Virus record (IMG/VR): IMGVR_UViG_3300018426_000089
Location: 1-33,001 of that record
From: a virus
Direction: 5' to 3' (one strand)
DNA: 33,001 nucleotides
Positions 1-27,562 of the stretch are shown one piece after another. A model generated the notes under the pieces. That model saw only the letters and a list, made by a program, of their open reading frames with translations, was not told the origin of the DNA and did no database searches. How positions within the stretch are numbered: position 1 is the first letter of the stretch; every line of letters starts with the position of its first letter. The position numbers and the translations under genes are program-made.

Positions 1-356
1 CGGAGTTTTGCTCCGTGATCGGACTCGAACCACCGATAGGCACACCGATAGGCAGACGAATTCTTGTCCCCCCAGACTGGGTTGCACCACTCCTCGCGTT
101 CCAGATAGATCCCAATCCGAAGATCGGGAGTCTCACATGTCCACTCGACACCCCGGGTGGCAGTTTCCCTATCCCAGAGGATTTCGGATGCTGGGCCAAA
201 GAGGGGGTGCGACTCCCCGATCGTTTCGTAGAGCCCCCCATTTCCATTCCCTTCGGCCTTGAATTTCTTCCCGGCGTAGGAAACGATCATGTCCGCGCAG
301 TGCTCGTACAGTGCTTCGAACGAGCACGGCAACAAAATGCCTGTCCAGATGCTAAT
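1..356 (-). CDS. Cassette 1: hypothetical protein, partial, with likely ATT start
   Basis: An open frame runs on the minus strand from 356 to the window edge (118 codons seen, no stop), so the C-terminus is missing. Its likely start is ATT, five bases after AAGGAGG, exactly where the other cassettes have ATG or GTG. The nearest usual in-frame starts are two TTG codons and a later ATG, all too far from the Shine-Dalgarno motif. The product starts I/M-S-I-W-T-G, has many Trp, Tyr and Cys residues (for example CNPVWGD), and shows no signal peptide or known domain. It is followed out of frame by the window edge, which carries a CGGAG/CTCCG hairpin at 1-15. Function unknown. Confidence 0.6.
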   Translation of the reverse strand, partial: MSIWTGILLPCSFEALYEHCADMIVSYAGKKFKAEGNGNGGLYETIGESHPLFGPASEILWDRETATRGVEWTCETPDLRIGIYLEREEWCNPVWGDKNSSAYRCAYRWFESDHGAKL

Positions 357-429
357 GATATCCTCCTTGGGGGATTGCCCCTGTTGGGCGGCACTGTGCC
401 GCCGGGTTGTGGTGGTAAAGCCCACCATG

Positions 430-460
430 GAGCCCCCTCCGCCTCCAGGGGAGGGAGCTC
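430..460 (-). terminator. GC-rich hairpin of the short spacer type, 5' of cassette 1
   Basis: The arms GAGCCCCCTCC and GGAGGGAGCTC pair with one mismatch. The same hairpin occurs at 1693-1723 and 2112-2142. It has no T-run on either side, so it may be a processing or attenuation element rather than a true intrinsic terminator. Confidence 0.4.
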
Positions 461-487
461 TAGTTGGACTCTGGTCGATTCTTTCTG

Positions 488-518
488 GAGCCCCCTCCCC
501 GAGAAGAGGAGGGGGCTC
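488..518 (-). terminator. Hairpin just after cassette 2
   Basis: A perfect 11-bp stem (GAGCCCCCTCC/GGAGGGGGCTC) has a different loop from the hairpin at 430-460. It lies 15 bases after the cassette 2 stop codon. On the minus strand it is followed by CAGAAAGAATCG, not a T-run, so termination is uncertain. Confidence 0.45.
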
Positions 519-532
519 AGGATTTAGGCCTG

Positions 533-832
533 TCACTTGACGGGGGTGACAGGCCCGATGAATGCGGCGAAGTCCACTTCGCCGCTGGGGGAAGCTCCTC
601 GAACTTTGGCCGGGAGCGGCTTTACTTCATCCATCGTCTCCAAGCGGAGTTTCTGTTGGATTTCCGCTTTCTGCTTCGGGTTGATGACCTTGGCGATCAT
701 CTCCCGGTCGCCTCGCTTTTCCTTCTCTTCTTTTCGCATATCTGCGAGAGAAGAACGCTGAAGGACATGCACGGTCCGGCCATTGCCCAAGTCTACCCAA
801 TTGGACCTAAAGACCTTCTTTTCCTTAGCCAT
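533..832 (-). CDS. Cassette 2: small charged hypothetical protein
   Basis: This 99-residue protein is lysine- and arginine-rich (MAKEKKVFRSNW..., then a KEEKEKRGDRE stretch near residues 35-45) and probably helical in the middle. The ATG at 832 is chosen because it follows the long Shine-Dalgarno motif AAGAAAGGAGGTGAT with a four-base ACCT spacer. An upstream in-frame GTG at 841 lies inside that motif and is rejected. The first codons (ATGGCTAAGGAAAAG) resemble those of cassette 14 although the rest of the proteins do not match. I recognise no domain; charge and size suit a nucleic-acid or ribosome-binding role, but that is a guess. Confidence 0.7.
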   Translation of the reverse strand: MAKEKKVFRSNWVDLGNGRTVHVLQRSSLADMRKEEKEKRGDREMIAKVINPKQKAEIQQKLRLETMDEVKPLPAKVRGASPSGEVDFAAFIGPVTPVK

Positions 833-1040
833 AGGTATCACCTCCTTTCTTGGTGGTATTACTGCTACGCCGCATTGACCAGCGGGTCTCGGCTACTTCG
901 GTTCGTAGCGGGTTCAAGTCGGCAAGGCGGGATTGCCACGCCGACATTGATTGGGAGTAAATCCGGAATAAGCTCGCTCGCCGCTGTGTTGGTGACGTTT
1001 GAGCCTACTTCGGCTGCCCTCACTCGTACTGAGGTTTAAA
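833..1040 (-). promoter_or_regulatory. Structured leader of cassette 2 (three-hairpin type) with extended Shine-Dalgarno
   Basis: The leader is nearly identical to 6951-7152 before cassette 14. On the minus strand it has three successive short stems (GTCGGC/GCCGAC, GCTAC/GTAGC, CCGC/GCGG) and then AAGAAAGGAGGTGAT, a near-complete match to a 16S 3' end of CCTCCTTTCT type. The far end keeps the CTCA/TGAG hairpin and TTTAAACCTCA common to the array. Confidence 0.6.
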
Positions 1041-1041
1041 A

Positions 1042-1084
1042 AAAGAAAGGGGGGCGACGCCGAAGCGTCGCCCCCCCCTTTCTT
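1042..1084 (-). terminator. Intrinsic terminator after cassette 3 (UUCG loop)
   Basis: On the minus strand GGGGGGCGACGC-TTCG-GCGTCGCCCCCC is followed by TTTCTTTTTTT. The C(UUCG)G loop is extra stable. The A-rich flank pairs with the T-rich flank, so the hairpin may act in both directions. Confidence 0.85.
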
Positions 1085-1096
1085 TGCCTCCTTCCT

Positions 1097-1618
1097 CTAG
1101 CTACGCACCTTGGCGAAGTCGAGGCCCAAGGCAACCGCCTCTCCGGCGGTTGAGGCTCCCGCATTGCTGGCGGGAACCTCAGAGGGCCGGATTGGATCTC
1201 CAGGGTGGAATGTCCACACCTGGAGCCCCCGGCCATCTTCTCTGGGGCCAAGGATCATGGTGGTGTGACCCACCATCGTCCTGTCTCCGACATTCTCGAC
1301 CACAGCCGAGATCTTGCCGGTCCCCTTCGGATCCTCCAGCACCACCGGGTGCTGGGGATCCAGGTCCGAGAGGCGGATGATACCCATACGACCGGGGATC
1401 TCGGCCCGGAAGCCGATCGCTGGGGACTGGATGTCCCCGTGATCGTATGGCCTCCACTCGGCACCCTTCAGGAGATCCGGGATCTCGTCAGAGTGAGCGT
1501 CGAAAACGCTGCCGGCGTTCTCCGAGTGGTGAGCGGACCGCATCTCGCACATGCGATCCATGTACTCAACCGGAGTGTTCCGGATGGCGTCCAGGACCAG
1601 CTTCGTTTTTTCGTTCAC
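1097..1618 (-). CDS. Cassette 3: hypothetical protein, largest of the array
   Basis: A 173-residue protein starting at GTG 1618, seven bases after AAGGAG. The N-terminal third is helical and acidic (MNEKTKLVLDAIRNTPVEYM). The C-terminal half looks like a small beta-rich fold with the motif VGHTTMILGP (about residues 115-124) and VWTFHPGDP (about 133-141), close to what a conserved enzyme or toxin-like core would show, though I cannot name the family. The first codons (GTGAACGAAA) are shared with cassettes 12 and 13, which are otherwise unrelated. The terminator at 1042-1084 follows. The next cassette upstream (4) is separated by a short spacer. Confidence 0.75.
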   Translation of the reverse strand: MNEKTKLVLDAIRNTPVEYMDRMCEMRSAHHSENAGSVFDAHSDEIPDLLKGAEWRPYDHGDIQSPAIGFRAEIPGRMGIIRLSDLDPQHPVVLEDPKGTGKISAVVENVGDRTMVGHTTMILGPREDGRGLQVWTFHPGDPIRPSEVPASNAGASTAGEAVALGLDFAKVRS

Positions 1619-1692
1619 TTTCTACTCCTTGGGGCATTGCCCCGGTTGGGCGGCGTGATTGCCGCCGGGTTGTGGTGGTAGAGCCCACCATG

Positions 1693-1723
1693 GAGCCCCC
1701 TCCGCCTCCAGGGGAGGGGGCTC
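1693..1723 (-). terminator. Hairpin in short spacer between cassettes 4 and 3
   Basis: A perfect 11-bp stem GAGCCCCCTCC/GGAGGGGGCTC follows the cassette 4 stop by 15 bases. No T-run follows; instead comes a GGTGG/CCACC mini-hairpin, then the usual GGCGG and GGGGC hairpins and the cassette 3 Shine-Dalgarno. Cassettes 5, 4 and 3 may therefore be read as one transcript. Confidence 0.4.
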
Positions 1724-1738
1724 TAGCTGGGCGCTAAG

Positions 1739-2038
1739 CTAACAAGCGCAGTAGGCGACCTTGCCCCCTCGCCGGATGGCCGCCTTGGCGACCTCCAGGA
1801 AGGCGCAGTCCACCTGGGCAGCTTGGAGCTGACTTTCGACCCCCAGGATCATCTCTGCGGTCAGCTCGAAGCGGAGCGGGCCCTTGAAATCCCAGGACTG
1901 CTCCTCCCCATTGGGACGCTCACTCTTAACGAGGAATTCGTGAACGAATACCTCGTGGAGTTTGTAGTCCTTGCGCCAGGTGGCAATCTGCTGGCACTCG
2001 CTTCCCTCGACCACTTCGAGGGTTTGATCCATCCCCAT
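1739..2038 (-). CDS. Cassette 4: hypothetical protein, paralog of cassette 10
   Basis: A 99-residue protein starting MGMDQTLEVVEG. Residues 1-32 match cassette 10 closely (for example ATWRKDYKLHEVFV against ATWRKEYHLHAIFV), and both end with an alanine-rich helix (FLEVAKAAIRRGGKVAY against FLEEARSAASRGAKVVY), so the two are duplicates that have diverged in the middle. The start at ATG 2038 lies six bases after AAGGAGG. A second ATG two codons later is also possible. The start codon sits in the loop of a TCCCC/GGGGA hairpin also found at cassettes 9 and 10. Function unknown. Confidence 0.75.
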   Translation of the reverse strand: MGMDQTLEVVEGSECQQIATWRKDYKLHEVFVHEFLVKSERPNGEEQSWDFKGPLRFELTAEMILGVESQLQAAQVDCAFLEVAKAAIRRGGKVAYCAC

Positions 2039-2111
2039 CGGGGACCTCCTTGGGGCATTGCCCCTGTTAGGGCAGCGTGATTGCTGCCGTGTGGTGGTAG
2101 AGCCCACCATG

Positions 2112-2142
2112 GAGCCCCCTCCGCCTCCAGGGGAGGGGGCTC
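2112..2142 (-). terminator. Hairpin in short spacer between cassettes 5 and 4
   Basis: Same perfect GAGCCCCCTCC/GGAGGGGGCTC stem as at 1693-1723, about ten bases after the cassette 5 stop. There is no T-run. Confidence 0.4.
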
Positions 2143-2152
2143 TAGCTGGGCG

Positions 2153-2455
2153 CTAGCTTTTACGGGGCTTGGGGAAGCCGCAATGGGCCACCGCATAACG
2201 CACGGCAGGCCCCGCGAACTTCTCGACCTGGGCGAGCGTCAGCTCCTTCCCCCGCATCTCCGGGGGGATGTCCATGGGGACTTCCGTTACGGTCCGCGCC
2301 AGGACCGCGAGCCGCAGGGGAAGGACCCCGATGACATCCTTCCCCGCGACTTCTTCTGGTTTGGCGTGGGATACAACCTCCACGTCCTTCTGCACCAGGC
2401 CCTGCTGGATGAGGTATTCCACCAGCGCCGGGTGGCGCGTGACTACGATCGTCAC
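2153..2455 (-). CDS. csx16: Cassette 5: Csx16-like (VVA1548 family) CRISPR-associated protein
   Basis: This 100-residue protein has the ordered signature of the Csx16/Cas_VVA1548 family: an N-terminal strand and VTRHPALVEYL (about residues 5-15), a V-x-SHA motif (28-31), DVIGVLPLRLA (40-50), and VPMDIPPEMRGKELT (59-73). Family proteins read V-T-R-H-x-G-A-x-x-W-L, then D-x-V-x-G-x-L-P-x-x-L-A, then L-x-L-x-x-P-x-x-x-R-G-x-E-L. Csx16 occurs as an ancillary protein of type III CRISPR systems and has been linked to degradation of cyclic oligoadenylates (ring nuclease activity). No cas gene or CRISPR array is in the window, so a role in damping type III signalling as an anti-defence protein is inferred. 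The start is GTG 2455, five bases after AAGGAGG. The C-terminus (GFPKPRKS) is basic. Confidence 0.8.
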   Translation of the reverse strand: MTIVVTRHPALVEYLIQQGLVQKDVEVVSHAKPEEVAGKDVIGVLPLRLAVLARTVTEVPMDIPPEMRGKELTLAQVEKFAGPAVRYAVAHCGFPKPRKS

Positions 2456-2592
2456 TGCTTCCTCCTTGGGGCATTGCGCCCCGTCTCGGGCGGCGTGATT
2501 GCCGCCGGGTTAACAGCCGGAATAAGTTCTCAAGCCGCTGTGTTGGCGACGTTTGAGCCTACCCCGGCTGTACTCACTCGTACTGAGGTTTA
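2456..2592 (-). promoter_or_regulatory. Structured leader of cassette 5
   Basis: Standard long leader. The outer stem pairs 2513-2520 with 2564-2571 (ACAGCCGG/CCGGCTGT). GGCGG/CCGCC and GGGGC/GCCCC hairpins stand before AAGGAGG. Confidence 0.55.
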
Positions 2593-2595
2593 AAA

Positions 2596-2638
2596 AAAGA
2601 AAGGGGGGGCGACGCCGAAGCGTCGCCCCCCTTTCTTT
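2596..2638 (-). terminator. Intrinsic terminator after cassette 6 (UUCG loop)
   Basis: GC stem with C(UUCG)G loop, flanked by pairing AAAGAAAG/CTTTCTTT tracts and a T-run on the minus strand. Confidence 0.85.
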
Positions 2639-2640
2639 AT

Positions 2641-3009
2641 TCAGGTCTTGGGGTAGGTCTTTCCGACGTGGACGACGATGCGCGTCCACCCATTCGAGAC
2701 CCACCCGAGTTCGTGGGTATCCCGGATCCTGAGGTCCGGCAACCATTCCAGGTACATTTTCGGTTCCTGGAATCCCCGTCCCGCGTAAGAGCCGAGGAGC
2801 TGCCTGGCCTCAGCGTACCCCTCTTTCCCCTCGGACAGGAAGACCCTTCCCGAGGAGGAGTACTTGAACTGCCTCTCCTTGGCGATTTCATGCACCGTCT
2901 TCGCGAGCCCCTCTTCCGAGGGCTGCGCGAGCCCCTCTTCCGAGGGCTGCGCGAGCTCCTCTTCCGAGGGCTTACCGAGGCCGGGGATCTTCATGATCCA
3001 TTTCCACAT
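2641..3009 (-). CDS. Cassette 6: hypothetical protein, paralog of cassettes 12 and 13, with internal repeats
   Basis: A 122-residue protein starting MWKWIMKIPGLG at ATG 3009, after AAGGAG with a spacer of nine. Residues about 13-37 hold three copies of an eight-residue unit (consensus PSEEELAQ), encoded by 24-bp tandem repeats. The remainder aligns with cassettes 12 and 13: GKEGYAEARQLLGSY here, GDPGYEEAARLLGSH and GDPGYEEADRLLGSH there, each followed by an aromatic motif (YLEWLPD / VRWAD / LRRWAD) and a C-terminal strand pair. This defines a small array-specific family with an acidic N-terminal tail of variable length. The hydrophobic MWKWIMKIPGLG start may be a membrane-associating segment. 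Function unknown. Confidence 0.75.
   Translation of the reverse strand: MWKWIMKIPGLGKPSEEELAQPSEEGLAQPSEEGLAKTVHEIAKERQFKYSSSGRVFLSEGKEGYAEARQLLGSYAGRGFQEPKMYLEWLPDLRIRDTHELGWVSNGWTRIVVHVGKTYPKT
2903..2972 (-). repeat. 24-bp tandem repeat inside cassette 6
   Basis: Nearly three copies of a 24-bp unit (2903-2926, 2927-2950, then a partial copy with one change) keep the reading frame and encode acidic eight-residue repeats. Slippage here would change the tail length in steps of eight residues. Confidence 0.85.
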
Positions 3010-3151
3010 TGACTTTCTCTCCTTGGGGCTTTGCCCCGGTTCGGGCGGCTTGATTGCCGCCGGGTTAACAGCGGGAATAAGCTCGCTCGCCGCTGTGTTG
3101 GCGAAGTTTGGGCCTACCCCCGCTGCACTCACTCGTAGTGAGGGTTTAAAA
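3010..3151 (-). promoter_or_regulatory. Structured leader of cassette 6 with compensated stem
   Basis: The outer stem is CAGCGGG (3069-3075) with CCCGCTG (3119-3125), where most leaders have CAGCCGG/CCGGCTG. Both sides changed together, which supports real base pairing. The leader ends in the usual hairpins and AAGGAG. Confidence 0.6.
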
Positions 3152-3152
3152 A

Positions 3153-3194
3153 AAGAAAGGGGGGGCAACGCCGTAGCGTCGCCCCCCCTTCTTT
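3153..3194 (-). terminator. Intrinsic terminator after cassette 7 (UACG loop)
   Basis: GC stem with a C(UACG)G loop and one G-U pair on the RNA, followed on the minus strand by TTTCTTTTTTT. Confidence 0.8.
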
Positions 3195-3204
3195 CCCGGA
3201 CTCC

Positions 3205-3588
3205 TCAGTTCATCTGAGGAGTCCCGCAACGCTGAGCCAGCGTTGCGTCGAGCTCTGCCACCGGGATCTTAATAAAATTTCGGTAGAGCTCCCCGGGTGC
3301 CGCCTCTGGGAGAATAAGTTCTACCTCCGCCCAGACCAAGGCACTCTCTTCCTCCCTTCGGCGCTCCCAGATCAAGACACTCTCGTCCACCCCGGGGCTC
3401 GCGAGGTAGACGTACAGGTCGCCCTCTCTGGAGGGCTTCTTCCAGAGATTCGTGGAGAACTCGAGGTCCCGGAACCTGGGGTCCCAGTACTCGAAGCCGT
3501 GGTGGAGGAGGATCTCCTCCACCGACTCAGCCTCGGCACGTTGGCCGAGGCGGGCGACCCACCTGAGAACCATGACAATGAACTGCAC
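3205..3588 (-). CDS. Cassette 7: hypothetical protein
   Basis: A 127-residue protein starting at GTG 3588, six bases after AAGGAG. The N-terminus MQFIVMVLRWVARLGQ is hydrophobic and could be an amphipathic helix or weak membrane segment. The rest is mixed, with GDLYVYLASPGVDESVLIWER and ELYRNFIKIPVAELDATLAQR suggesting alternating strands and helices. No catalytic motif is evident and it has no paralog in the array. Downstream of the stop are its own terminator and the leader of cassette 6. Confidence 0.7.
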   Translation of the reverse strand: MQFIVMVLRWVARLGQRAEAESVEEILLHHGFEYWDPRFRDLEFSTNLWKKPSREGDLYVYLASPGVDESVLIWERRREEESALVWAEVELILPEAAPGELYRNFIKIPVAELDATLAQRCGTPQMN

Positions 3589-3722
3589 TTTCGACTCCTT
3601 GGGGCATTGCCCCGGTTGGGCGGCGTGATTGCCGCCGGGTTGATAGCCAGAATAAGCTCTCCCGCCGCTGTGTGCGCGACGTTTGGAGCCTACTCCTGCT
3701 GCACTCACTGGTACTGAGGTTT
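3589..3722 (-). promoter_or_regulatory. Structured leader of cassette 7
   Basis: Standard layout, but the outer stem is weakened: AGCCAGA faces TCCTGCT, with two mismatches. GGCGG and GGGGC hairpins and AAGGAG are intact. Confidence 0.5.
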
Positions 3723-3730
3723 AAAAAAAA

Positions 3731-3768
3731 GAAGGGGGGGGCAACGCCGAAGCGTCGCCCCCCCCTTC
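3731..3768 (-). terminator. Intrinsic terminator downstream of cassette 8 (UUCG loop)
   Basis: Long GC stem with C(UUCG)G loop and a T-run on the minus strand. It lies about 65 bases after the cassette 8 stop because an extra element (3771-3833) intervenes. Confidence 0.8.
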
Positions 3769-3770
3769 CC

Positions 3771-3833
3771 TTGAGTCGTTCTGTTCCCAGGTGACTAACC
3801 CGGCACACCCGGAGTGTGCAGTCGCCGCCCAGA
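3771..3833 (-). repeat. Shared 3' element after cassette 8
   Basis: About 50 bases here match 6619-6670 after cassette 14 with only a few differences (GTTCCCAGGTGACTAACC is identical). A CACAC/GTGTG hairpin lies inside. Only these two of the sixteen cassettes have this 3' extension, and both have the long Shine-Dalgarno leader. Confidence 0.65.
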
Positions 3834-3998
3834 CTAGCAGTCGCCCTTGGCAGGCTCAGCCTTCAGCTCAGCCTTGCGCTTAGCCGAATAGCCAGGCACA
3901 GAAGAGCCTGAATCTGGGGAGTGCTTGAAGCAATACGGCTCATCGTCATATTGGACGATAAAACCGCACCCCTCCATCTCGCACTTATGGGGAAACAT
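3834..3998 (-). CDS. Cassette 8: small zinc-ribbon-like protein
   Basis: A 54-residue protein with four possible metal ligands: C6, C11, C23 and H26 (KCEMEGCGF ... PYCFKHS). This fits a single treble-clef or zinc-ribbon-like site. After it comes SPDSGSSVPGYS, then a basic and acidic tail (KRKAELKAEPAKGDC). The ATG at 3998 follows AAGAAAGGAGGTGAT with spacer ACCT. A longer reading upstream only extends into the leader repeat. It could be a small nucleic-acid-binding or protein-docking protein; no function is shown. Confidence 0.7.
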   Translation of the reverse strand: MFPHKCEMEGCGFIVQYDDEPYCFKHSPDSGSSVPGYSAKRKAELKAEPAKGDC

Positions 3999-4138
3999 AG
4001 GTATCACCTCCTTTCTTGGTGAGATTTTCGAGTCGGCAGGGCGTGATTGCCGCCGGGTTAACAGCCGAGTAAGCTTTACCGCTGCCGCGTGGGCGACATT
4101 TAAGCCTACTCCTGCTGCCCTCACTCGTAGTGAGGTTT
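3999..4138 (-). promoter_or_regulatory. Structured leader of cassette 8 with extended Shine-Dalgarno
   Basis: A hybrid leader: the 3' end matches the extended Shine-Dalgarno type (ACCAAGAAAGGAGGTGAT), while the upstream part is the standard type with CAGC...GAGTA facing TACTC...GCTG. The mixture suggests recombination between leader types. Confidence 0.55.
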
Positions 4139-4144
4139 AAAAAA

Positions 4145-4183
4145 AGAAAAGGGGGCGACGCCGAAGCGTCGCCCCCCTTTCTT
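4145..4183 (-). terminator. Intrinsic terminator after cassette 9 (UUCG loop)
   Basis: GGGGGCGACGC-TTCG-GCGTCGCCCCC stem with T-run on the minus strand, just after the stop codon. Confidence 0.85.
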
Positions 4184-4187
4184 CCCG

Positions 4188-4487
4188 TTAGGCTGGGCGG
4201 ATCGGGAAGGGGAACACAGCGGGGCCGGACAGGACCACCTTCTTGATGATCTCTCCGGCGAATCCGGGGAGATCGTACTCTGTCGGGTCACTCGCCATTT
4301 GTCCGGCCTTCAGCCGGACAAAGGTGAATGTTTCGACCTGGCCCATCAAGGACGGGCGAGTTGGGATGTACCCTCTCAGCTCTTCGATGGACGAACCTTC
4401 CGCCACCGCGAATCGTACATCCGGCACATCGAAGCGTCCACCCGGCACATCCAAGACCAGGACGTACCGATACTGATCAATCCCCAT
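4188..4487 (-). CDS. Cassette 9: hypothetical protein
   Basis: A 99-residue protein starting MGIDQYRYVLVLDVPGG at ATG 4487, six bases after AAGGAGG. Strand-rich start, then a helix (SSIEELRGYI), a second strand (VETFTFVRLKAG) and a C-terminal FPFPIRPA. The nucleotides around the start (TCCCCGATGGGGATTGATCA) match cassettes 4 and 10, but the protein after residue 5 is unrelated to them. No domain recognised. Confidence 0.7.
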   Translation of the reverse strand: MGIDQYRYVLVLDVPGGRFDVPDVRFAVAEGSSIEELRGYIPTRPSLMGQVETFTFVRLKAGQMASDPTEYDLPGFAGEIIKKVVLSGPAVFPFPIRPA

Positions 4488-4622
4488 CGGGGACCTCCTT
4501 GGGGCATTGCGCCCCGGTTCGGGCGGCACTACACCGCCGGGTTAACAGCCGGAATAAGCTCCCACCGCTGCCGCATGGGCGACGTTGAAGCCTACTCCGG
4601 CTGTACTCACTGGTAGTGAGGT
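4488..4622 (-). promoter_or_regulatory. Structured leader of cassette 9
   Basis: Best formed outer stem of the array: nine pairs between 4545-4553 (ACAGCCGGA) and 4596-4604 (TCCGGCTGT). A TCCCC/GGGGA stem places the start codon in a hairpin loop. Confidence 0.6.
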
Positions 4623-4630
4623 TTAAAAAA

Positions 4631-4669
4631 AGAAAAGGGGGCGACGCCGAAGCGTCGCCCCCCCTTCTT
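4631..4669 (-). terminator. Intrinsic terminator after cassette 10 (UUCG loop)
   Basis: GC stem with C(UUCG)G loop and T-run on the minus strand, about 20 bases after the stop. Confidence 0.85.
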
Positions 4670-4688
4670 CCCGTCGGGGTCTACACCG

Positions 4689-5003
4689 CTAGCCAGCGGT
4701 GTAGACCACCTTCGCCCCCCGGGACGCCGCTGACCTGGCCTCCTCGAGGAAGGCCAAGTAGCGCTCGGGGTAGAGCCACCGGAGCATCCGCTCGACCCGA
4801 GCCATCTGGTCGCTGGTCAGCTCGCAGTGAGCTGACCATTGGTTATCGGGCAGCCAGATCGGCTGCCCGGTCGCCACCACGATGGAGCGGCGACCAGAAG
4901 CCACCTGCACGAAGATTGCGTGCAGGTGGTATTCCTTGCGCCAGGTGGCAAGCACCTGGCGCTCGTCTCCCTCGATTACTTCGAGGGACTGTTCCATCCC
5001 CAT
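4689..5003 (-). CDS. Cassette 10: hypothetical protein, paralog of cassette 4
   Basis: A 104-residue protein starting MGMEQSLEVIEGDERQ at ATG 5003, seven bases after AAGGAGG. It shares its first 32 residues and its C-terminal helix with cassette 4. The middle (SGRRSIVVATGQPIWLPDNQW) is different and longer, then MARVERMLRWLYPERYLAFLEEARSAASRGAK is a long helix. The nucleotide sequence holds several local inverted repeats, for example around 4855-4872 (GGGCAGCC/GGCTGCCC). Function unknown. Confidence 0.75.
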   Translation of the reverse strand: MGMEQSLEVIEGDERQVLATWRKEYHLHAIFVQVASGRRSIVVATGQPIWLPDNQWSAHCELTSDQMARVERMLRWLYPERYLAFLEEARSAASRGAKVVYTAG

Positions 5004-5140
5004 TGGGGGACCTCCTTGGGGCATTGCGCCCCGTCTCGGGCGGCGTGATTGCCGCCGGGTTAACAGCTGGAATAAGCTCTACCGCTGCCGCGTTGGCGAC
5101 ATTGAAGCCTACTCCTGCTGCCCTCACTGGGACTGAGGTT
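5004..5140 (-). promoter_or_regulatory. Structured leader of cassette 10
   Basis: The outer stem is CAGC-T-GGA facing TCC-T-GCTG, pairing except for one mismatch. Standard hairpins and AAGGAGG follow. Confidence 0.5.
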
Positions 5141-5148
5141 TAAAAAAA

Positions 5149-5183
5149 GAAGGGGGGGCAACGCCGTAGCGTCGCCCCCCTTC
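5149..5183 (-). terminator. Intrinsic terminator after cassette 11 (UACG loop)
   Basis: GC stem, C(UACG)G loop, and T-run on the minus strand. Confidence 0.8.
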
Positions 5184-5193
5184 CCTTGACATG

Positions 5194-5535
5194 CTAGCTC
5201 GCGAGCCCCGGGGGGATCCGGTGCTGGATCCCCTCCCAATCTCCGTAGTGGAGCTCCTCTTGCAGAGAGAGGAGCTCGGAGGCCACATGGACGGCTTGGT
5301 CTATGACCGCCCCGTCCCGGTAGAGCCGGACCTCGTACCGGGCACCCGGCCCGGTGGGGATTCGCTGCACTGCAAGGTGCAGCGCCCCGTCCCGGTAGCG
5401 CTTAACCATGGTCGGGGGGACCTCATAGGGCTCCCCGTCCCGGTAGATCGCCCAACCTTCGGAAGGTTGGGCGTTGAACGGCTCCCAGCCGATTTGCTTT
5501 AACATATCGAAAACTTCTTGGTCCTCGTAGAACAC
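5194..5535 (-). CDS. Cassette 11: hypothetical protein, paralog of cassette 15
   Basis: A 113-residue protein starting at GTG 5535, six bases after AAGGAG. It aligns over its full length with cassette 15: EVFDMLKQIGWEPF against EVFAMLQEIGWEVL at the start, VPPTMVKRYRDGALHLAVQRIP against FAPAMVLRDLDGEVKLMVQRLP in the middle, and ELLSLQEELHYGDWEGIQH against EMLSLRDPLRWGSWQDIQH at the end. The pattern helix, beta-meander, helix, then W-x-x-I-Q-H is clear, but I know of no named family. The invariant Trp and His residues are candidates for a functional site. Confidence 0.75.
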   Translation of the reverse strand: MFYEDQEVFDMLKQIGWEPFNAQPSEGWAIYRDGEPYEVPPTMVKRYRDGALHLAVQRIPTGPGARYEVRLYRDGAVIDQAVHVASELLSLQEELHYGDWEGIQHRIPPGLAS

Positions 5536-5672
5536 TGTTCACTCCTTGGGGCATTGCGCCCCGGTTCGGGCGGCGTGATTGCCGCCGGGTTGATAGCCGG
5601 AATAAGTTCTCCCGCCGCTGCCGCATGGGCGACGTTGAAGCCTACTCCGGCTGTGCTCACTGGTAGTGAGGT
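5536..5672 (-). promoter_or_regulatory. Structured leader of cassette 11
   Basis: The outer stem pairs 5595-5601 (AGCCGGA) with 5646-5652 (TCCGGCT). Standard hairpins and AAGGAG. Confidence 0.55.
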
Positions 5673-5680
5673 TTAAAAAA

Positions 5681-5720
5681 AGAAAGGGGGGCGACGCCGT
5701 GGCGTCGCCCCCTCTTTCTT
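5681..5720 (-). terminator. Intrinsic terminator after cassette 12 (CACG loop)
   Basis: Same stem as its relatives, but the loop on the minus strand is CACG rather than UUCG or UACG. T-run present. Confidence 0.8.
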
Positions 5721-5731
5721 TAGGGACTATC

Positions 5732-5998
5732 TCAGTAGTACCGACGGACAGTCCCTTCAATTTTGATCTGGGTCCCATCCGCGACCGACCCGTGGGGGGC
5801 GGGCTTGAGGTTCTCGGAGTCAGCCCACCGTACAAGGCGCATCTTCTGCACCCCAAAGGTCCTTGCCGCGTGGGACCCGAGGAGCCTCGCGGCCTCCTCG
5901 TACCCGGGGTCACCCTCGCGCAGGAATCTCCACCCATCCTTCAGGGTGAGGAGGCTGTAGACCGTCTCTATGAGCTCCTCTTCCTTCGTTTCGTTCAC
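5732..5998 (-). CDS. Cassette 12: hypothetical protein, paralog of cassettes 6 and 13
   Basis: An 88-residue protein starting at GTG 5998 (MNETKEEELIETVYSLL). The sequence ATGGAGG stands where other units have AAGGAGG, so the ATG inside it (6010) is more likely part of the Shine-Dalgarno motif than the start. An acidic helix is followed by REGDPGYEEAARLLGSHAARTFG and LVRWADSENLKPAP, the core shared with cassettes 6 and 13. The C-terminus ends in IKIEGTVRRYY. Function unknown. Confidence 0.7.
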   Translation of the reverse strand: MNETKEEELIETVYSLLTLKDGWRFLREGDPGYEEAARLLGSHAARTFGVQKMRLVRWADSENLKPAPHGSVADGTQIKIEGTVRRYY

Positions 5999-6131
5999 TT
6001 CTTCCTCCATGGGGCATTGCCCCGGTTCGGGCGGCGTTGTGCCGCCGGGTTGATAGCCGGGTTCAGCTCTACCGCCGCTGTGTTGGCGACGTTTAAGCCT
6101 ACTTCGGCTGTACTCACTCGTAGTGAGGTTT
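5999..6131 (-). promoter_or_regulatory. Structured leader of cassette 12
   Basis: The outer stem is AGCCG/CGGCT, shortened relative to other leaders. The Shine-Dalgarno is ATGGAGG in place of AAGGAGG. Confidence 0.5.
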
Positions 6132-6136
6132 AAAAA

Positions 6137-6178
6137 AAAGAAAGGGGGGCAACGCCGTAGCGCTGCTCCCCTCCTTCT
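6137..6178 (-). terminator. Degenerate terminator after cassette 13
   Basis: The stem is weakened by changes on one arm (GCGCTGCTCCCCTCC opposite GGGGGGCAACGC), but the UACG loop and flanking T-run remain. Confidence 0.6.
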
Positions 6179-6442
6179 TTAGTCCAGATTGACCGCGATC
6201 TTGGTCCTATCGGAAACCCACCCGCCGGGCGCGACCTTCCGGTCGCTGTAGTCAGCCCACCGGCGAAGGGTCATCTCCTGTCCGGGGAATTCCCTTAACC
6301 AGTGGGACCCGAGGAGCCTGTCGGCCTCCTCGTACCCGGGGTCACCTTTTCTCAGGTGTACAAGACCGTGGACATCCTTCCGGGCGATGTTGTAGACCGT
6401 CGCCATGAGCTCCTCGAGCTCCTCTTCCTTCATTTCGTTCAC
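6179..6442 (-). CDS. Cassette 13: hypothetical protein, paralog of cassettes 6 and 12
   Basis: An 87-residue protein starting at GTG 6442 (MNEMKEEELEELMATVY), chosen because GGAGG lies five bases before it; an ATG at 6454 overlaps that motif. It matches cassette 12 closely, with RKGDPGYEEADRLLGSHWLREFP, LRRWADYSDRKVAP and a C-terminal TKIAVNLD. Cassettes 12 and 13 are neighbours, so this looks like a recent tandem duplication that copied leader and gene together. Confidence 0.7.
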   Translation of the reverse strand: MNEMKEEELEELMATVYNIARKDVHGLVHLRKGDPGYEEADRLLGSHWLREFPGQEMTLRRWADYSDRKVAPGGWVSDRTKIAVNLD

Positions 6443-6572
6443 TTCTTCCTCCATGGGGCTTAGCCCCGGTTCGGGCGGCACTACACCGCCAGGTTAACAG
6501 CCGGGTTTAGCTTACCCGCCACTGTGTGGACGACATTTAAGCCTACTCCGGCTGTACTCACTCGTTGTGAGG
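6443..6572 (-). promoter_or_regulatory. Structured leader of cassette 13
   Basis: The outer stem ACAGCCGG/CCGGCTGT is intact. The hairpin next to TTTAAACCTCA is CTCAC-AACGA-GTGAG. Confidence 0.55.
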
Positions 6573-6582
6573 TTTAAAAAAA

Positions 6583-6618
6583 AGAAGGGGGGCAACGCCG
6601 TAGCGTCGCCCCCCTTCC
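6583..6618 (-). terminator. Intrinsic terminator downstream of cassette 14 (UACG loop)
   Basis: GC stem with UACG loop and T-run. It is separated from the cassette 14 stop by the shared 3' element. Confidence 0.8.
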
Positions 6619-6683
6619 CTTGAGTCATTCTGTTCCCAGGTGACTAACCCGGCACACCCGTAGTGTGCAGACTCGCCGAGCCC
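6619..6683 (-). repeat. Shared 3' element after cassette 14
   Basis: Matches 3771-3833 after cassette 8 (GTTCCCAGGTGACTAACC identical), including the CACAC/GTGTG hairpin, although the two upstream genes are unrelated. Confidence 0.65.
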
Positions 6684-6950
6684 CTAGGAGAACTGGATCG
6701 TAACGATCCAGCCATTCCCCGGGCCGAGGGACTCCTTGCGGATGACGAGCTTGCGACCGCCAGGGATCGCAATCTCACGGGAGTCCTTGCCCGCAAGCAA
6801 AAACATAGCTTCTGCTTGCAGCTTGTCGCCCTCGAGCAAGGCGAGAGAGATCGGATTGCTCGGAGTGGCCAAGCCCTCGAGGAGGGGCGCGAACGTGCAA
6901 TCGAGGTACTCAACGATTGCCTCGATGCACTTCTGCTTGTCCATAGCCAT
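6684..6950 (-). CDS. Cassette 14: hypothetical protein
   Basis: An 88-residue protein starting MAMDKQKCIEAIVEYLDC at ATG 6950, after the extended Shine-Dalgarno AAGAAAGGAGGTGAT with spacer ACCT. Helical N-terminal half (ISLALLEGDKLQAEAMFLLAG), then a strand-turn-strand end (GGRKLVIRKESLGPGNGWIVTIQFS). The ATGGCTATGGACAAG start resembles cassette 2. No domain recognised. Confidence 0.7.
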   Translation of the reverse strand: MAMDKQKCIEAIVEYLDCTFAPLLEGLATPSNPISLALLEGDKLQAEAMFLLAGKDSREIAIPGGRKLVIRKESLGPGNGWIVTIQFS

Positions 6951-7152
6951 AGGTATCACCTCCTTTCTTGGTGATATTGCTGCTACCCGCATTGACCAGC
7001 GGGTTTCGGCTACTTCGGTTCGTAGCGGGTTCGAGTCGGCAGGGCGGGATTGCCACGCCGACGTTGATTGGGAGTAAAGCCAGAGTAAGCTCGCTCGCCG
7101 CTGTGTGGACGACGTTTGAAGCCTACTCCTGCTGCCCTCACTCGTAGTGAGG
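6951..7152 (-). promoter_or_regulatory. Structured leader of cassette 14 (three-hairpin type)
   Basis: Near copy of 833-1040. Perfect stems CCCGC/GCGGG, GCTAC/GTAGC and GTCGGC/GCCGAC stand before AAGAAAGGAGGTGAT. Differences from the cassette 2 leader fall mainly in loops. Confidence 0.6.
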
Positions 7153-7161
7153 TTTAAAAAA

Positions 7162-7202
7162 AAGAAAGGGGGGCGACGCCGAAGCGTCGCCCCCCCCTTC
7201 TT
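7162..7202 (-). terminator. Intrinsic terminator after cassette 15 (UUCG loop)
   Basis: GGGGGGCGACGC-TTCG-GCGTCGCCCCCC type stem with T-run on the minus strand. Confidence 0.85.
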
Positions 7203-7215
7203 AGCTCGCGAGACC

Positions 7216-7551
7216 CTAGTGCTGGATGTCTTGCCAGGACCCCCATCTTAGGGGGTCTCGGAGGCTAAGCATCTCGGCGGGGCAAAAGACCTCTGGCTCC
7301 TCCGAGACCCCGCCGACGTAGCATCTCACCTCGAAGTAATCGAGGACTCGATGCGGGAGCCTCTGGACCATGAGCTTCACTTCCCCGTCCAAGTCCCGAA
7401 GAACCATGGCCGGGGCGAAGTCGACCACCACCCCATCTTGGGTGATGGCGTAGAGGCCCTCGTCTGGGCCGCGCCCCTGCTCCCTATCGAATCGGGTGAG
7501 GACCTCCCACCCGATCTCTTGGAGCATTGCAAAAACCTCATAGTGGTCCAT
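7216..7551 (-). CDS. Cassette 15: hypothetical protein, paralog of cassette 11
   Basis: A 111-residue protein starting MDHYEVFAMLQEIGWEVL at ATG 7551, five bases after AAGGAGG. It is the full-length partner of cassette 11, ending at the conserved W-x-x-I-Q-H, whereas cassette 11 has eight more residues. The middle loop (FDREQGRGPDEGLYAI) is longer here. Function unknown. Confidence 0.75.
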   Translation of the reverse strand: MDHYEVFAMLQEIGWEVLTRFDREQGRGPDEGLYAITQDGVVVDFAPAMVLRDLDGEVKLMVQRLPHRVLDYFEVRCYVGGVSEEPEVFCPAEMLSLRDPLRWGSWQDIQH

Positions 7552-7682
7552 TGTTTCCTCCTTGGGGCATTGCCCCGCTAGGGCAGCGTGATTGCTGCCA
7601 GGTTAAAAAGCCGGAATAAGCTTTACCGCTGCCGCGTTGGCGACATTGAAGCCTACCCCGGCTGTACTCACTCGTAGTGAGG
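7552..7682 (-). promoter_or_regulatory. Structured leader of cassette 15
   Basis: The outer stem is AGCCGG/CCGGCT. The GGCGG-type hairpin is replaced by GGCAGCAATCACGCTGCC (minus strand), a compensated variant with a GGCAGC/GCTGCC stem. Confidence 0.55.
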
Positions 7683-7689
7683 TTTAAAA

Positions 7690-7730
7690 AAAGAAAGGGG
7701 GGCGACGCCGAAGCGTCGCCCCCCTTTCTT
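7690..7730 (-). terminator. Intrinsic terminator overlapping the cassette 16 stop codon
   Basis: GC stem with UUCG loop and T-run. The TAA stop at 7729-7731 is the first part of the stem flank. Confidence 0.85.
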
Positions 7731-7953
7731 AGCAGTGGCGGAGGTCGTGCAGAACGAGCGCCGCCTCCTCGCCGCAGTCGAGGCACAGTGCCCCCTCCTC
7801 GCCGCAAGCGGCGAGGAGGCCCGCCAGGGTCCGATGCGGCTTCCCGCAAGGGACCTTGACGGAGGCCAAGGCCGCCTTGAACTCGGCGGACTTGGCCTCC
7901 TCCTGGGAGTCGATATACTCCCGGTACGCTGCCAACTCTTCCTTATCGAACAT
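7729..7953 (-). CDS. Cassette 16: small Cys-containing hypothetical protein, first of the array
   Basis: A 74-residue protein starting MFDKEELAAYREYIDSQEE at ATG 7953, after AAGGAG. An acidic helix is followed by VPCGKPHRTLAGLLAACGEE and CLDCGEE, then VLHDLRHC. The Cys and His residues (C-G-K-P-H, C-x-x-C, H-x-x-x-H-C) could bind zinc. It has the upstream-most position in the array, and its leader has diverged from the others. Confidence 0.65.
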   Translation of the reverse strand: MFDKEELAAYREYIDSQEEAKSAEFKAALASVKVPCGKPHRTLAGLLAACGEEGALCLDCGEEAALVLHDLRHC

Positions 7954-8883: not shown

Positions 8884-9183
8884 ATGTCTGCAACAACTAT
8901 AAGTACAACATTGGCTGGGGCTATTGCATCACTGGCGGTAGCAGGTGTGGTAGCAGCGGCTTCAGGTTTAATTGAGGTTGCGCGAGTAGATGAGAGAGTT
9001 GCGAATCATACGGATAGAATAAACGCAGCTGAAAGTGGCTTAAGTCAAAATACGGTTCGACAAATGCAGATGCAGACAGACCTAGAGGTGGTGAAGGAAA
9101 AGGTTGAGAATATCGATGACAAGCTTAGGACTACAGACAATAAGCTTGATTTAATCTTAGAAAGATTACCTCGATCTCCCTAA
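8884..9183 (+). CDS. Membrane-anchored coiled-coil protein
   Basis: A 99-residue protein with one hydrophobic segment near the N-terminus (about residues 9-33, very Ala/Val-rich) followed by a charged coiled coil to the end (LEVVKEKVENIDDKLRTTDNKLDLILERL). Topology suggests an N-terminal membrane anchor with an extended helical domain on one side. Phage lysis accessory proteins such as XhlA-like or spanin-like peptides have related layouts, but there is no lysis gene beside it to support that. AGGGGA stands about eight bases before the ATG. It converges with the gene at 9180-9410, overlapping by four bases. Confidence 0.65.
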   Translation: MSATTISTTLAGAIASLAVAGVVAAASGLIEVARVDERVANHTDRINAAESGLSQNTVRQMQMQTDLEVVKEKVENIDDKLRTTDNKLDLILERLPRSP

Positions 9184-9410
9184 TGTACTGTACCTTCTGC
9201 CTTTGGCATTTGAGCTAGGATAAACTTTATATACTCAAGTTTACCTAATATTACGCCATGAACTTCATCGGTGTCATTAAGGTGCTCTGCATCTGGGATA
9301 ACTATTTCCCACTGCAATGCCTTACATACATCAACTAATATTGCGATCGCCTCAGTGGTTGTCAATTGTTCTAGTTCCATTGTAAGTTCCGAGTTTTGTG
9401 TAAATCTCAT
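9180..9410 (-). CDS. Small hypothetical protein at the end of the leftward operon
   Basis: A 76-residue, mostly helical acidic protein (MELEQLTTTEAIAILVDVCKALQWEIVIP ... GKLEYIKFILAQMPKAEGTVH). The ATG overlaps the upstream stop in TAATG, a sign of translational coupling to the nuclease gene 9410-9940. No family recognised. Confidence 0.55.
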   Translation of the reverse strand: MRFTQNSELTMELEQLTTTEAIAILVDVCKALQWEIVIPDAEHLNDTDEVHGVILGKLEYIKFILAQMPKAEGTVH

Positions 9411-9940
9411 TAACGCACATCCTCGCCTTTCAATTCATTGTACACCTTATCGTACATTGAATCAAAATCGGTTGTAGATCTCTTACCCCCGAAGTATGCT
9501 ATGCCATAGCCTTGATTTATTAGTAGGGTATTTATATTAACATTATCTGCGAATATAATACCAAGTAGTCTTCCATATTTTTCTTTTTCCTTTTTAGGCT
9601 GGATGCAAATTTCGAGTGAGAAAGAAGACTGGATGAGGTCGTTTAATTTTTGTTTAGCTCGCATACCTAATTTTTTTTCTTTTTTATTTTTGGTTCTGGA
9701 TTCTGGAGCATTATAGCCATACATTCTAAGTTTTTGGTTAACTAATTTAACATCGAATCCTAGATCAATATCGAAGGAGGCAGTATCTCCATCTGTAACC
9801 TTAACAATTTGAGCTGGATATCTTTTGCAATTCTCTTCAAATTCCAGCATTTCTAACCATGGTATACTTTTAATTTTTAAATCTTCTGTAGATACAGTAA
9901 TCAAAGACAAAGCTATTGCCGTAATAATATTAAGATGCAT
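9410..9940 (-). CDS. Staphylococcal-nuclease-like (thermonuclease) protein, probably exported
   Basis: A 176-residue protein with the SNase core: VKVTDGDTASFDIDL (about residues 46-60), LRMYGYNAPESR (71-82), and EKYGRLLGIIF (120-130), then LLINQGYGIAYFGGKR. The family's Arg-Asp-Glu active site is represented by the D in VTDGDT, R/E in YNAPESR and the R of YGRLLG. Residues 1-18 (MHLNIITAIALSLITVST) are hydrophobic and may be a signal peptide or anchor. The start overlaps the upstream gene by 11 bases and is preceded by GGGAG. Exported thermonucleases degrade DNA or RNA; in a phage it might limit competing DNA or supply nucleotides. Confidence 0.8.
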   Translation of the reverse strand: MHLNIITAIALSLITVSTEDLKIKSIPWLEMLEFEENCKRYPAQIVKVTDGDTASFDIDLGFDVKLVNQKLRMYGYNAPESRTKNKKEKKLGMRAKQKLNDLIQSSFSLEICIQPKKEKEKYGRLLGIIFADNVNINTLLINQGYGIAYFGGKRSTTDFDSMYDKVYNELKGEDVR

Positions 9941-10286
9941 TTCTGAGCTCCCTTAAGAAACCTATTTTAATTGCTTCATTGCTATTTCTAATTGCCAATC
10001 TAACCGCATCTGGATCTAGGTTTAGTATTGTGCATGTTGGTATAAATGATAGGACATATGATTGATCATTTGAGTTAATCCATCGAATAGCATCTCTTTT
10101 AATCGATTGATTATCGGAGAAGCAATCTGACATAGCGGTAAGGAAGAATTGTCTAACAAGTTTAAAAGCTGGACTTTTAATTCTTGCTTTATCCTGAAAG
10201 ACAGACGGGTCACCCGTATCACTTTCGAGGATTTCTTTTTCTATTGGACCGTATAAATCCCACGGCGAGTATTTTTTATCATTCAT
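9930..10286 (-). CDS. Small protein with a domain shared by two AP2-type proteins of this phage
   Basis: A 118-residue protein starting MNDKKYSPWDLYGPIEKEIL at ATG 10286, which overlaps the upstream stop (ATGAATGA). The C-terminal half, KRDAIRWINSNDQSYVLSF then LNLDPDAVRLAIRNS, matches the C-terminal halves of 15610-16164 (KNARDWFANK..., LSIDSSYVRKCLKKS) and 21519-22013 (RKDALEWINSD..., LGVDAEQARNAILKS). The pattern of two helices, an aromatic linker and D-x-x-x-x-R suggests a small DNA-binding or assembly domain. This copy has no AP2 part. Confidence 0.65.
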   Translation of the reverse strand: MNDKKYSPWDLYGPIEKEILESDTGDPSVFQDKARIKSPAFKLVRQFFLTAMSDCFSDNQSIKRDAIRWINSNDQSYVLSFIPTCTILNLDPDAVRLAIRNSNEAIKIGFLRELRNAS

Positions 10287-10551
10287 TATTTGCAATTTCC
10301 CTAATTGCATCTATTCTTAATTTTTCTAAGTCAATAAACTCTGCAAGATGCTTGAGTGCTTCTGTTGTTAAGACATATTTAGCGAACAAGGATCTTGGTT
10401 CTGAGAATATTATTCCTAGGCGAGGATCTCTATTGGAGAATACATTTATGAGAGATCCCTTATCTTGACTTGCAATAAGGAATTGATGTCCGGTAATTTT
10501 TTTAAGTTTTTCGCATGCCATCAACACTTTTCTTATTGAGAAATTTTCCAC
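10279..10551 (-). CDS. Hypothetical protein in the leftward operon
   Basis: The frame is open from 10770, but its first part lies inside the nuclease gene and reads as a shadow (Arg/Ser-rich). I take GTG 10551, five bases after GGAGG, giving 90 residues starting MENFSIRKVLMACEKLKKITGHQ; an ATG follows ten codons later. Helical, with SLFAKYVLTTEALKHLAEFIDLEKLRIDAIREI at the end. No family recognised; the start is uncertain. Confidence 0.45.
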   Translation of the reverse strand: MENFSIRKVLMACEKLKKITGHQFLIASQDKGSLINVFSNRDPRLGIIFSEPRSLFAKYVLTTEALKHLAEFIDLEKLRIDAIREIANNE

Positions 10552-10634
10552 CACATCCTCCACCGCGACCTCGTGATTTATGCCAGCGATATATTCTATA
10601 AGGTATCTGGGGAAAGTCCAACTTATGGGAGAAT

Positions 10635-11189
10635 TTAGGAGAAATTTTTTGAGGAGTTCCGCAAGATCTCGATAAAAGGGCGCATTTGGGATGGTGAGAC
10701 GACTGCGCGAGGGCCGTAGCCGTAATCGACTAGAGTGGATTTTTCCATAAATTCTTTTTTTGTAATCCAAGAAAACAGGGAGAGGGTACGTTCCCGTGCA
10801 GAGGGATAAACGAGTACGCCAATATCTTCTTGGAAAGAATTTTTATTTTCTGATTGCAGAGCAAAATCCCAGCCTGCCTTATTTCGATATTTAACAGAGC
10901 AGGTTTTGCCATTGGGCAAAACGATGTCCCCCTTGTTGGAGTCCCCTCCTCTAGCTAATTGCCATTGAGGAATTCCGCCGAGGGCGACCGAAACGGCGTA
11001 TTCGGCTCGCATACCGAGTAAATGGATTTCTAGATCTCCTTTTTGAGGATCGAATCTTTTGGAGGAGACTCGGAAACGCTCTTTGTTTTCCTGGCGTAAT
11101 TTTGCGAATTCGGTAACGATATAGGATTCCGCCGGGGAAAACTCATAGAGAACGGGAGTCGGATTTTTTTCGAGCAAAATAATGGGCAT
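10635..11189 (-). CDS. PD-(D/E)XK-like nuclease
   Basis: A 184-residue protein with the ordered residues of a PD-(D/E)XK fold: E63 in GMRAEYAVSVALGG, D88 in NKGDIVLPNG, and K100 in CSVKYRN. The spacing, with a helix before, a strand at GDIVL and a strand at SVKYR, fits small phage or restriction-type endonucleases. It starts at ATG 11189, ten bases after AAGGA. It is the first gene of a leftward five-gene unit (nuclease, unknown, AP2-associated domain, thermonuclease, unknown), divergent from the XRE regulators. Possible roles are host DNA degradation or exclusion of other phages. Confidence 0.65.
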   Translation of the reverse strand: MPIILLEKNPTPVLYEFSPAESYIVTEFAKLRQENKERFRVSSKRFDPQKGDLEIHLLGMRAEYAVSVALGGIPQWQLARGGDSNKGDIVLPNGKTCSVKYRNKAGWDFALQSENKNSFQEDIGVLVYPSARERTLSLFSWITKKEFMEKSTLVDYGYGPRAVVSPSQMRPFIEILRNSSKNFS

Positions 11190-11252
11190 AGACTGAGGAT
11201 CCTTCTTGTTGAATAATTAAACTTGGCCAAGGAAGAGCCAAAGGAGAATTAA
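11190..11252. promoter_or_regulatory. Divergent control region with near-palindrome
   Basis: The 15-mer GTTGAATAATTAAAC at 11208-11222 is a palindrome with one central base and two mismatched pairs, a plausible binding site for an XRE repressor encoded next to it. It contains TTGAATAAT, also found at 12999-13007 in the second divergent region. AAGGAG for the rightward gene lies at 11240-11245. Confidence 0.45.
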
Positions 11253-11549
11253 ATGGACAATGAAAAGACATTAAATTTCGGCAAGGAAGTACGACAGGAG
11301 CGAGAAAAGAACGGGATAAGCTTAAGGAAGATGGCGAGCTTAGTCGAGATGAGTCCTTCATACTTATCAAAGCTAGAGCGAGGTCTTGTAGCTCCTCCCA
11401 GCGAGAAATTCATTGAAAGCATGTCTTCTATTCTGAACATCGATCGGGATAGATTAATGGCCTTTGCCGGTAAGGTATCGAGCGATATAATTGGTAAGAT
11501 CATTGAGAATCCGGACATAGCAAAAAAAATTCGTAACGAAAGCTGTTGA
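11253..11549 (+). CDS. XRE-family transcriptional regulator 1
   Basis: A 98-residue protein that is almost entirely a helix-turn-helix domain: FGKEVRQEREKNGISLRKMASLVEMSPSYLSKLERGLVAPPSEKFIESMSSIL (about residues 9-63). The turn SPSYLSKLERG is typical of HTH_3. The C-terminal AGKVSSDIIGKIIENPDIAKKIR extension recurs in many phage and bacterial XRE proteins. ATG follows AAGGAG with a six-base spacer. It probably controls the divergent operon and its own operon as a repressor; small size suggests a Cro- or CI-like role without an autocleavage domain. Confidence 0.85.
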   Translation: MDNEKTLNFGKEVRQEREKNGISLRKMASLVEMSPSYLSKLERGLVAPPSEKFIESMSSILNIDRDRLMAFAGKVSSDIIGKIIENPDIAKKIRNESC

Positions 11550-11580
11550 CCTGGGAGAAACGATCATTAATATAGGTTCC

Positions 11581-12072
11581 ATGGAAAAACACAAATCTTA
11601 TCGGCACCCCGGAACTGGAACCAGTAGGCGTAGATTTCGGCAGCTTGAACGTCGAGATTCTCATGTCCAAGATCGGGATCACTTTGGGAAACTCCTACAG
11701 GGCGAAAGATTGGCGCAGGGAATGACGGTTGCGGAACTTTCTTCGATCTGTGGATTAACAAAGGACTATCTGTACAAAATTGAACGAGGGGATGCAGTTC
11801 CCCCTGCAAGCGAGCGAATCGTGCAGATTGCTAAGGCAATGGGCGTAAACAAAGATCGCCTATTAAGTTATGCGAATTTGATATCAGAGGATGTAGAAGA
11901 AGATATTTTCAATAATCCTGAGCTTATTTGCAGTATTATTCGAGAGATGTCAGGACATGGAAAGTCTGGGCTTAAGTATTTTCTCAGTATAATTAAGGAA
12001 GCTTCGTTTAATATTAAAGAGGCTCGTCTTGAGAATCTTCTTGAGAAAGAAGAAGTTCTATCTTCTCTGTGA
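11581..12072 (+). CDS. XRE-family transcriptional regulator 2
   Basis: A 163-residue protein with an XRE helix-turn-helix at about residues 34-90 (FGKLLQGERLAQGMTVAEL, then GLTKDYLYKIERGDAVPP), and a conserved LISEDVEEDIFNNPELICSIIREM that parallels the end of regulator 1. The first 33 residues are Arg/His-rich and unlike the rest. The ATG has only a weak AGG before it. The frame is open from 11521, directly after an eight-A run in regulator 1, so a frameshift fusion of the two is possible. The 3' end overlaps the convergent gene 12014-12742 by 59 bases. Confidence 0.75.
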   Translation: MEKHKSYRHPGTGTSRRRFRQLERRDSHVQDRDHFGKLLQGERLAQGMTVAELSSICGLTKDYLYKIERGDAVPPASERIVQIAKAMGVNKDRLLSYANLISEDVEEDIFNNPELICSIIREMSGHGKSGLKYFLSIIKEASFNIKEARLENLLEKEEVLSSL

Positions 12073-27561: not shown

Positions 27562-27562
27562 G

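Follow-up and report, generated by a model that had tools for sequence, protein, structure and literature searches.

The stretch of DNA analysed here (the window) is a single linear virus record of 33,001 bp from IMG/VR, which is a contig fragment and carries the following features:

1..7953, minus strand: small-gene array of ~16 leftward genes, the leftmost cut by the contig end; GC ~0.60, GC3 0.65-0.87
2106..2145, minus strand: GC-rich hairpin downstream of the csx16-type gene, read from the sequence and absent from the terminator-scan list
2153..2455, minus strand: Csx16-superfamily gene of the virus/plasmid clade, 100 aa, GTG start
2456..2640, minus strand: regulatory module in front of the csx16-type gene, ending with an AAGGAGG ribosome-binding site
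~2514-2570, within that module: imperfect hairpin of ~57 nt, accompanied by two short hairpins
2604-2634, within that module: bidirectional terminator hairpin
8884..12742, no strand assigned: phage flank, conserved in relatives, including other small genes
9410-9940, minus strand: SNase-like protein of the phage flank
11253-11549 and 11581-12072, plus strand: two HTH regulators of the phage flank
13041..30981, plus strand: phage core with replication, terminase and portal genes, among them a Cas4-like exonuclease, Sak4-like protein, SSB, HNH, SNF2 helicase, Hjc-like nuclease, primase-helicase, class II ribonucleotide reductase and RRM protein
27476-29005, plus strand: terminase large subunit of the phage core
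29008-30981, plus strand: portal of the phage core

The reading frame at window:2153-2455 runs on the minus strand from a GTG start at 2455, with the AAGGAGG site 5 bases upstream, to a TAG stop at 2155-2153, and its 100-aa product is referred to below as P0002. The protein matched PF09652 (Cas_VVA1548/Csx16) at 68.6 bits (E 5.4e-19; gathering score 25), which was its sole Pfam match listed up to E 10; no match to DUF1874, the sequence family of AcrIII-1, was found in the same listing. The PADLOC Csx16 model (PDLC01635) was matched at E 1e-17, a profile-profile comparison with cas-linked Csx16 gave 99.5% probability (E 1.9e-22), and the score against NCBIfam TIGR02620 (Csx16) was 27.3 bits, under the equivalog cut-off of 46.35. 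The kinship with Csx16 that a first-pass annotation had proposed from four conserved blocks is thus borne out by the Pfam and PADLOC scores, as well as by the profile comparison which it had put forward as a check; the blocks themselves are present, and VTRH, the SHA histidine, GxLP and RGKEL are kept in relatives. The domain match is not a chance one, because another 23 distinct viral proteins have this domain and because dN/dS was 0.05-0.18 in the measurable pairs of closely related viral clade members, a set to which P0002, having no relative near enough, does not contribute; the gene is therefore under selection to keep its protein. Window:2153-2455, the single copy in the 33,001 bp, encodes a Csx16-superfamily protein.

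The same annotation had described a phage lying next door to this gene, which needs correcting, since the whole window is itself one phage record, from a bacterial virus known through metagenomes alone, and the gene is, given the terminase and portal on it, encoded by a virus. Its remark that cas genes are missing here holds for the type III RAMP genes: no RAMP-family match was found anywhere on the record, so that within this contig fragment the gene lies neither inside nor next to a type III CRISPR locus. That part of a host type III locus had been taken for virus by mis-binning was rejected on the presence of terminase and portal and the absence of RAMPs, and an assembly chimera of GC-rich array and phage was rejected on the recurrence of the same junction on two other contigs. 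These two shorter records share both the array and the array-phage junction, and the array is thus genuinely part of this phage. The terminase relatives in named phages reached at most ~35% identity among the matches listed and were spread over many hosts; as a means of naming the host, the terminase large subunit and primase led just to remote relatives in phages already known. A short way upstream of the terminase, at window:26868-27209 (plus strand), lies a protein with an RRM_1 domain (PF00076, E 1.3e-15), which is unexpected in a bacterial phage.

The array spans ~8 kb and differs from its surroundings in codon usage, GC3 being 0.65-0.87 in its genes as opposed to 0.37-0.45 in the sampled phage core genes. 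Several genes are paralogous (7216/5194, 6179/5732/2641 and 4689/1739), and so the array probably grew partly by duplication of genes together with the regulatory module. This module, of ~180 bp, occurs in nine array genes, csx16 included, with ~80% mean column identity, and a further three cassettes share just its first half, making twelve nearly identical copies of the leader with terminator and 57-nt hairpin in window:1-8100 (minus strand), which stand between small genes unrelated to one another. For the csx16 copy, folding is much stronger than for shuffled sequence (z -6.9), and both-side changes were found at 7 of the 56 pairs of the module. Downstream of the csx16-type gene, the hairpin at 2106..2145 stands in place of the usual poly-T terminator. 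A search of the window against Rfam gave no match and hence no known RNA family for the leader, and a search for sigma-70 promoters before each cassette gave none beyond chance. Integron attC sites were rejected on reading the aligned leader copies, as the RYYYAAC/GTTRRRY ends are missing from the hairpin.

In related phages (~80% identity in terminase) conservation extends to the flanking genes, and a different sequence occupies the position of the array; no Csx16 was found on these partial records. Record L070 (~10,000-12,085) has GC-rich sequence with tandem repeats at the array position, and the far end of L069 also differs. The array is thus an accessory island, conserved in position and variable in content, a character which fits an anti-defence locus without proving one. 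The proposal that the other fifteen small proteins are anti-defence or defence cargo found no support, for the array proteins tested gave no functional match in Pfam or PADLOC besides Csx16, and the two which were searched in viruses had no relatives except in the same phage; anti-defence roles for the remaining genes are speculation.

The distribution of P0002 relatives was determined by scans of the viral collection seeded with P0002 and then with an alignment of cas-linked Csx16, which together gave 29 other records and ~23 distinct Csx16 proteins. The cas-linked-seeded scan served as a control: although started from the cas-linked form, it gave only distant matches, of at most 41% identity, and all nine new proteins were placed in the virus clade. 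In trees of 31, 39 and 41 rows, from which one viral protein cut short (L021) was left out, the branch with the virus, plasmid and MAG sequences on one side had support of 100/99, 99/94 and 99/95 and was recovered in 99, 100 and 100% of bootstrap trees, respectively, the ~90 residues giving limited resolution inside the clade. The clade of P0002 holds 22 of the 23 other viral proteins, two phage-like MAG contigs and two plasmids, and consists of viral, plasmid and short phage-like MAG sequences only. The viral copies of Drs3 and PhiF3 and an archaeal plasmid copy form long branches of uncertain placement. The bacterial rows come from a genome scan with one peptide pattern, and their label as cas-linked is confirmed by RAMP proximity for some of them. 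Viral proteins of the P0002-seeded scan scored 38-72 bits against PF09652, as compared with 95-132 for the cas-linked proteins of bacterial genomes.

Terminase is present on 13 of 29 Csx16 records, the window included, and no RAMP genes were found on the window, its two near-copies or the 28 other Csx16-bearing viral records. RAMP genes are also present in most genomes with cas-linked copies, in several cases nearby. The plasmid members of the clade are on Deinococcus pDEIPR02 and Meiothermus pMESIL02, where no annotated cas neighbours were found within stretches of up to 6 kb to either side (that of Meiothermus stops at the record start); in Allochromatium, by contrast, a plasmid copy of the cas-linked kind adjoins csm6, cas1 and cas2. 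These results bear directly on the idea that the gene was picked up from a host type III locus and has been retained by chance or as defence cargo. Type III loci are where the family is best known, which speaks for such an origin; however, P0002 groups with viral genes and not with cas-linked ones, the 28 other viral records lack RAMP genes and the clade is under purifying selection, so that the tree already largely refutes this explanation and we regard it as extremely improbable. That the clade is confined so far to viruses, plasmids and small phage-like contigs suggests that mobile elements may use a Csx16-type protein to silence a host alarm.

Within the alignment, both clades, P0002 included, retain R7, H8, H30, G43, L45, P46, R68, G69, E71 and L72. 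The virus/plasmid clade has a 4-residue deletion relative to cas-linked Csx16, within the VCxRGxRY stretch, and differs from it at many flanking residues, changes by which its specificity may have shifted. The clade might then have kept a ring-nuclease or ring-binding fold and act on another signal (that of CBASS, Thoeris or another cyclic nucleotide), or act as a sponge, being anti-defence and not anti-type III. This would accord with the clade-specific deletion and altered residues, with the presence of members in diverse phages without CRISPR linkage, and with the behaviour of the related Csx15, which binds cyclic tetra-adenylate (cA4) well and cleaves it slowly (PMC13148439). We nevertheless consider it unlikely, as the clade preserves, with hardly an exception, the residues that it has in common with the cA4-cleaving family.

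The structure of P0002 was modelled with a pLDDT of 90.9 and a pTM of 0.75. Judged from the predicted secondary-structure string and not from coordinates, the conserved residues shared by the two clades would fall at the C-terminal ends of successive beta-strands, and it is at the C-terminal strand ends that Rossmann-like folds bind nucleotides. On the same mapping, H8 would lie in the loop that follows strand 1, where Csx15 has its catalytic histidine (PMC13148439). The best-ranked solved structures for the model were mostly CARF domains bound to cyclic oligoadenylate (Cam1, Cad1), with the Crn1-type ring nuclease Sis0455 lower and viral AcrIII-2 further down, all of them weak matches within Z 3.1-4.5, a range which alone may signify merely a common arrangement. 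With Foldseek, neither the PDB nor viral models yielded a match below E 1e-3, and no solved Csx16 structure was found by sequence search. The control model of cas-linked Csx16 matched Sis0455 at Z 5.0 and 2J6B at Z 4.6, among generic folds such as serine recombinases; the published DALI value for Csx16 against 2J6B is 4.8 (PMC12409355).

Generic Rossmann folds were also among the weak matches of the P0002 model, and in other phages clade members lie next to genes for replication and regulation, both of which could be expected of a phage or plasmid regulator, or of a housekeeping nucleotide-binding protein, sharing with Csx16 its ancestry only. The RH, H, GxLP and RGxEL set is, however, the same as in cas-linked Csx16, and the lack of such a gene on the (partial) records of close phage relatives fits an accessory gene more than a housekeeping one; a regulatory or housekeeping role therefore appears to us very unlikely.

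The best reading, which we hold to be likely, is that P0002 belongs to a virus/plasmid branch of Csx16 that would degrade the cyclic-oligoadenylate signal of CRISPR and thus act as a type III anti-CRISPR. This anti-type III reading is the best supported one in view of the virus/plasmid clade and of the published activity of cas-linked Csx16, a ring nuclease specific for cA4 and not cA6 (PMC12409355). According to this scheme, P0002 would be a ring nuclease from the Csx16 superfamily, Rossmann/CARF-like in fold and encoded by a tailed phage. On sensing phage RNA, a type III CRISPR system of the host would make cA4, which P0002, probably as a dimer, would bind over the C-terminal edge of its beta-sheet. 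Putative contacts with the ring are T6-R7-H8 after strand 1, H30 after strand 2, G43-x-L45-P46 after strand 3 and R68-G69-x-E71 after strand 4. The cA4 would be opened to linear products and the cA4-dependent effectors would stay inactive, the outcome in infection being type III anti-CRISPR action. A more far-reaching version, tentative and in our judgement rather doubtful, would see in the clade an unrecognised and widespread anti-defence ring nuclease of bacterial phages, not described before, whose substrates differ in range from those of its cas-linked cousins and which is here one interchangeable cargo of a phage island where most genes come with a terminator and a structured leader of their own.

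Among the means by which phages counter type III CRISPR signalling, viral ring nucleases are the best known. Precedents are AcrIII-1, AcrIII-2 and the phage-borne Crn4b (PMC12751052, PMC12830947). AcrIII-1 (viral Crn2, DUF1874) and AcrIII-2 (viral SAVED) are likewise virus-encoded and remove cA4, and their sequence families differ from that of P0002. Crn4b is a ring nuclease family which also has phage and plasmid members; these lack a segment of ~10 residues and have been proposed as anti-CRISPRs, but the Crn4b fold is unrelated to Csx16 and its specificity broad (PMC12830947). The cas-linked Csx16 proteins (PF09652, TIGR02620; PMC12409355) share with P0002 the Pfam family, the RH, H, GxLP and P-E-x-R-G-x-E-L residues and a largely similar succession of predicted secondary-structure elements; P0002 differs in its separate virus/plasmid clade, its 4-residue deletion, GVLP for GTLP, its lack of nearby RAMP genes and its score under the TIGR02620 cut-off. 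The Csx16 genes of the archaeal viruses Drs3 and PhiF3 are virus-borne PF09652 genes like that of P0002, but they are divergent, lie outside its clade, keep the longer loop and come from viruses of methanogen hosts.

Csx16 has been counted in 2 of 28,114 phage genomes (PMC12409355), which are probably Drs3 and PhiF3. Searched against 50,697 phage records, P0002 had no match; a cas-linked query and two further members of the clade matched only these methanogen viruses there. A coherent Csx16 clade in more than 20 distinct uncultivated viruses thus stands against two phage genomes in the published survey. No description of the virus/plasmid clade was found in the literature searched, and judged by P0002 its members can fall below the NCBI Csx16 cut-off, while searches from three members did not find the clade in the 50,697 phage records. 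Its members can serve directly as a set of candidate anti-CRISPRs, and host and virus enzymes from a single family can naturally be compared. Other arrangements were also seen: on pMESIL02 (L037:5998-8013) a 671-aa protein combines an intact Csx16-like domain with a degenerate one, a contig of 5 kb assigned to a Bacteroidia MAG (L026:481-1017, 3695-4036) bears two different Csx16-like genes, both virus-type by score, and in a betaproteobacterial MAG (L030:4757-6286) a cas-type Csx16 domain forms the N-terminus of a ~500-aa protein in a single open frame.
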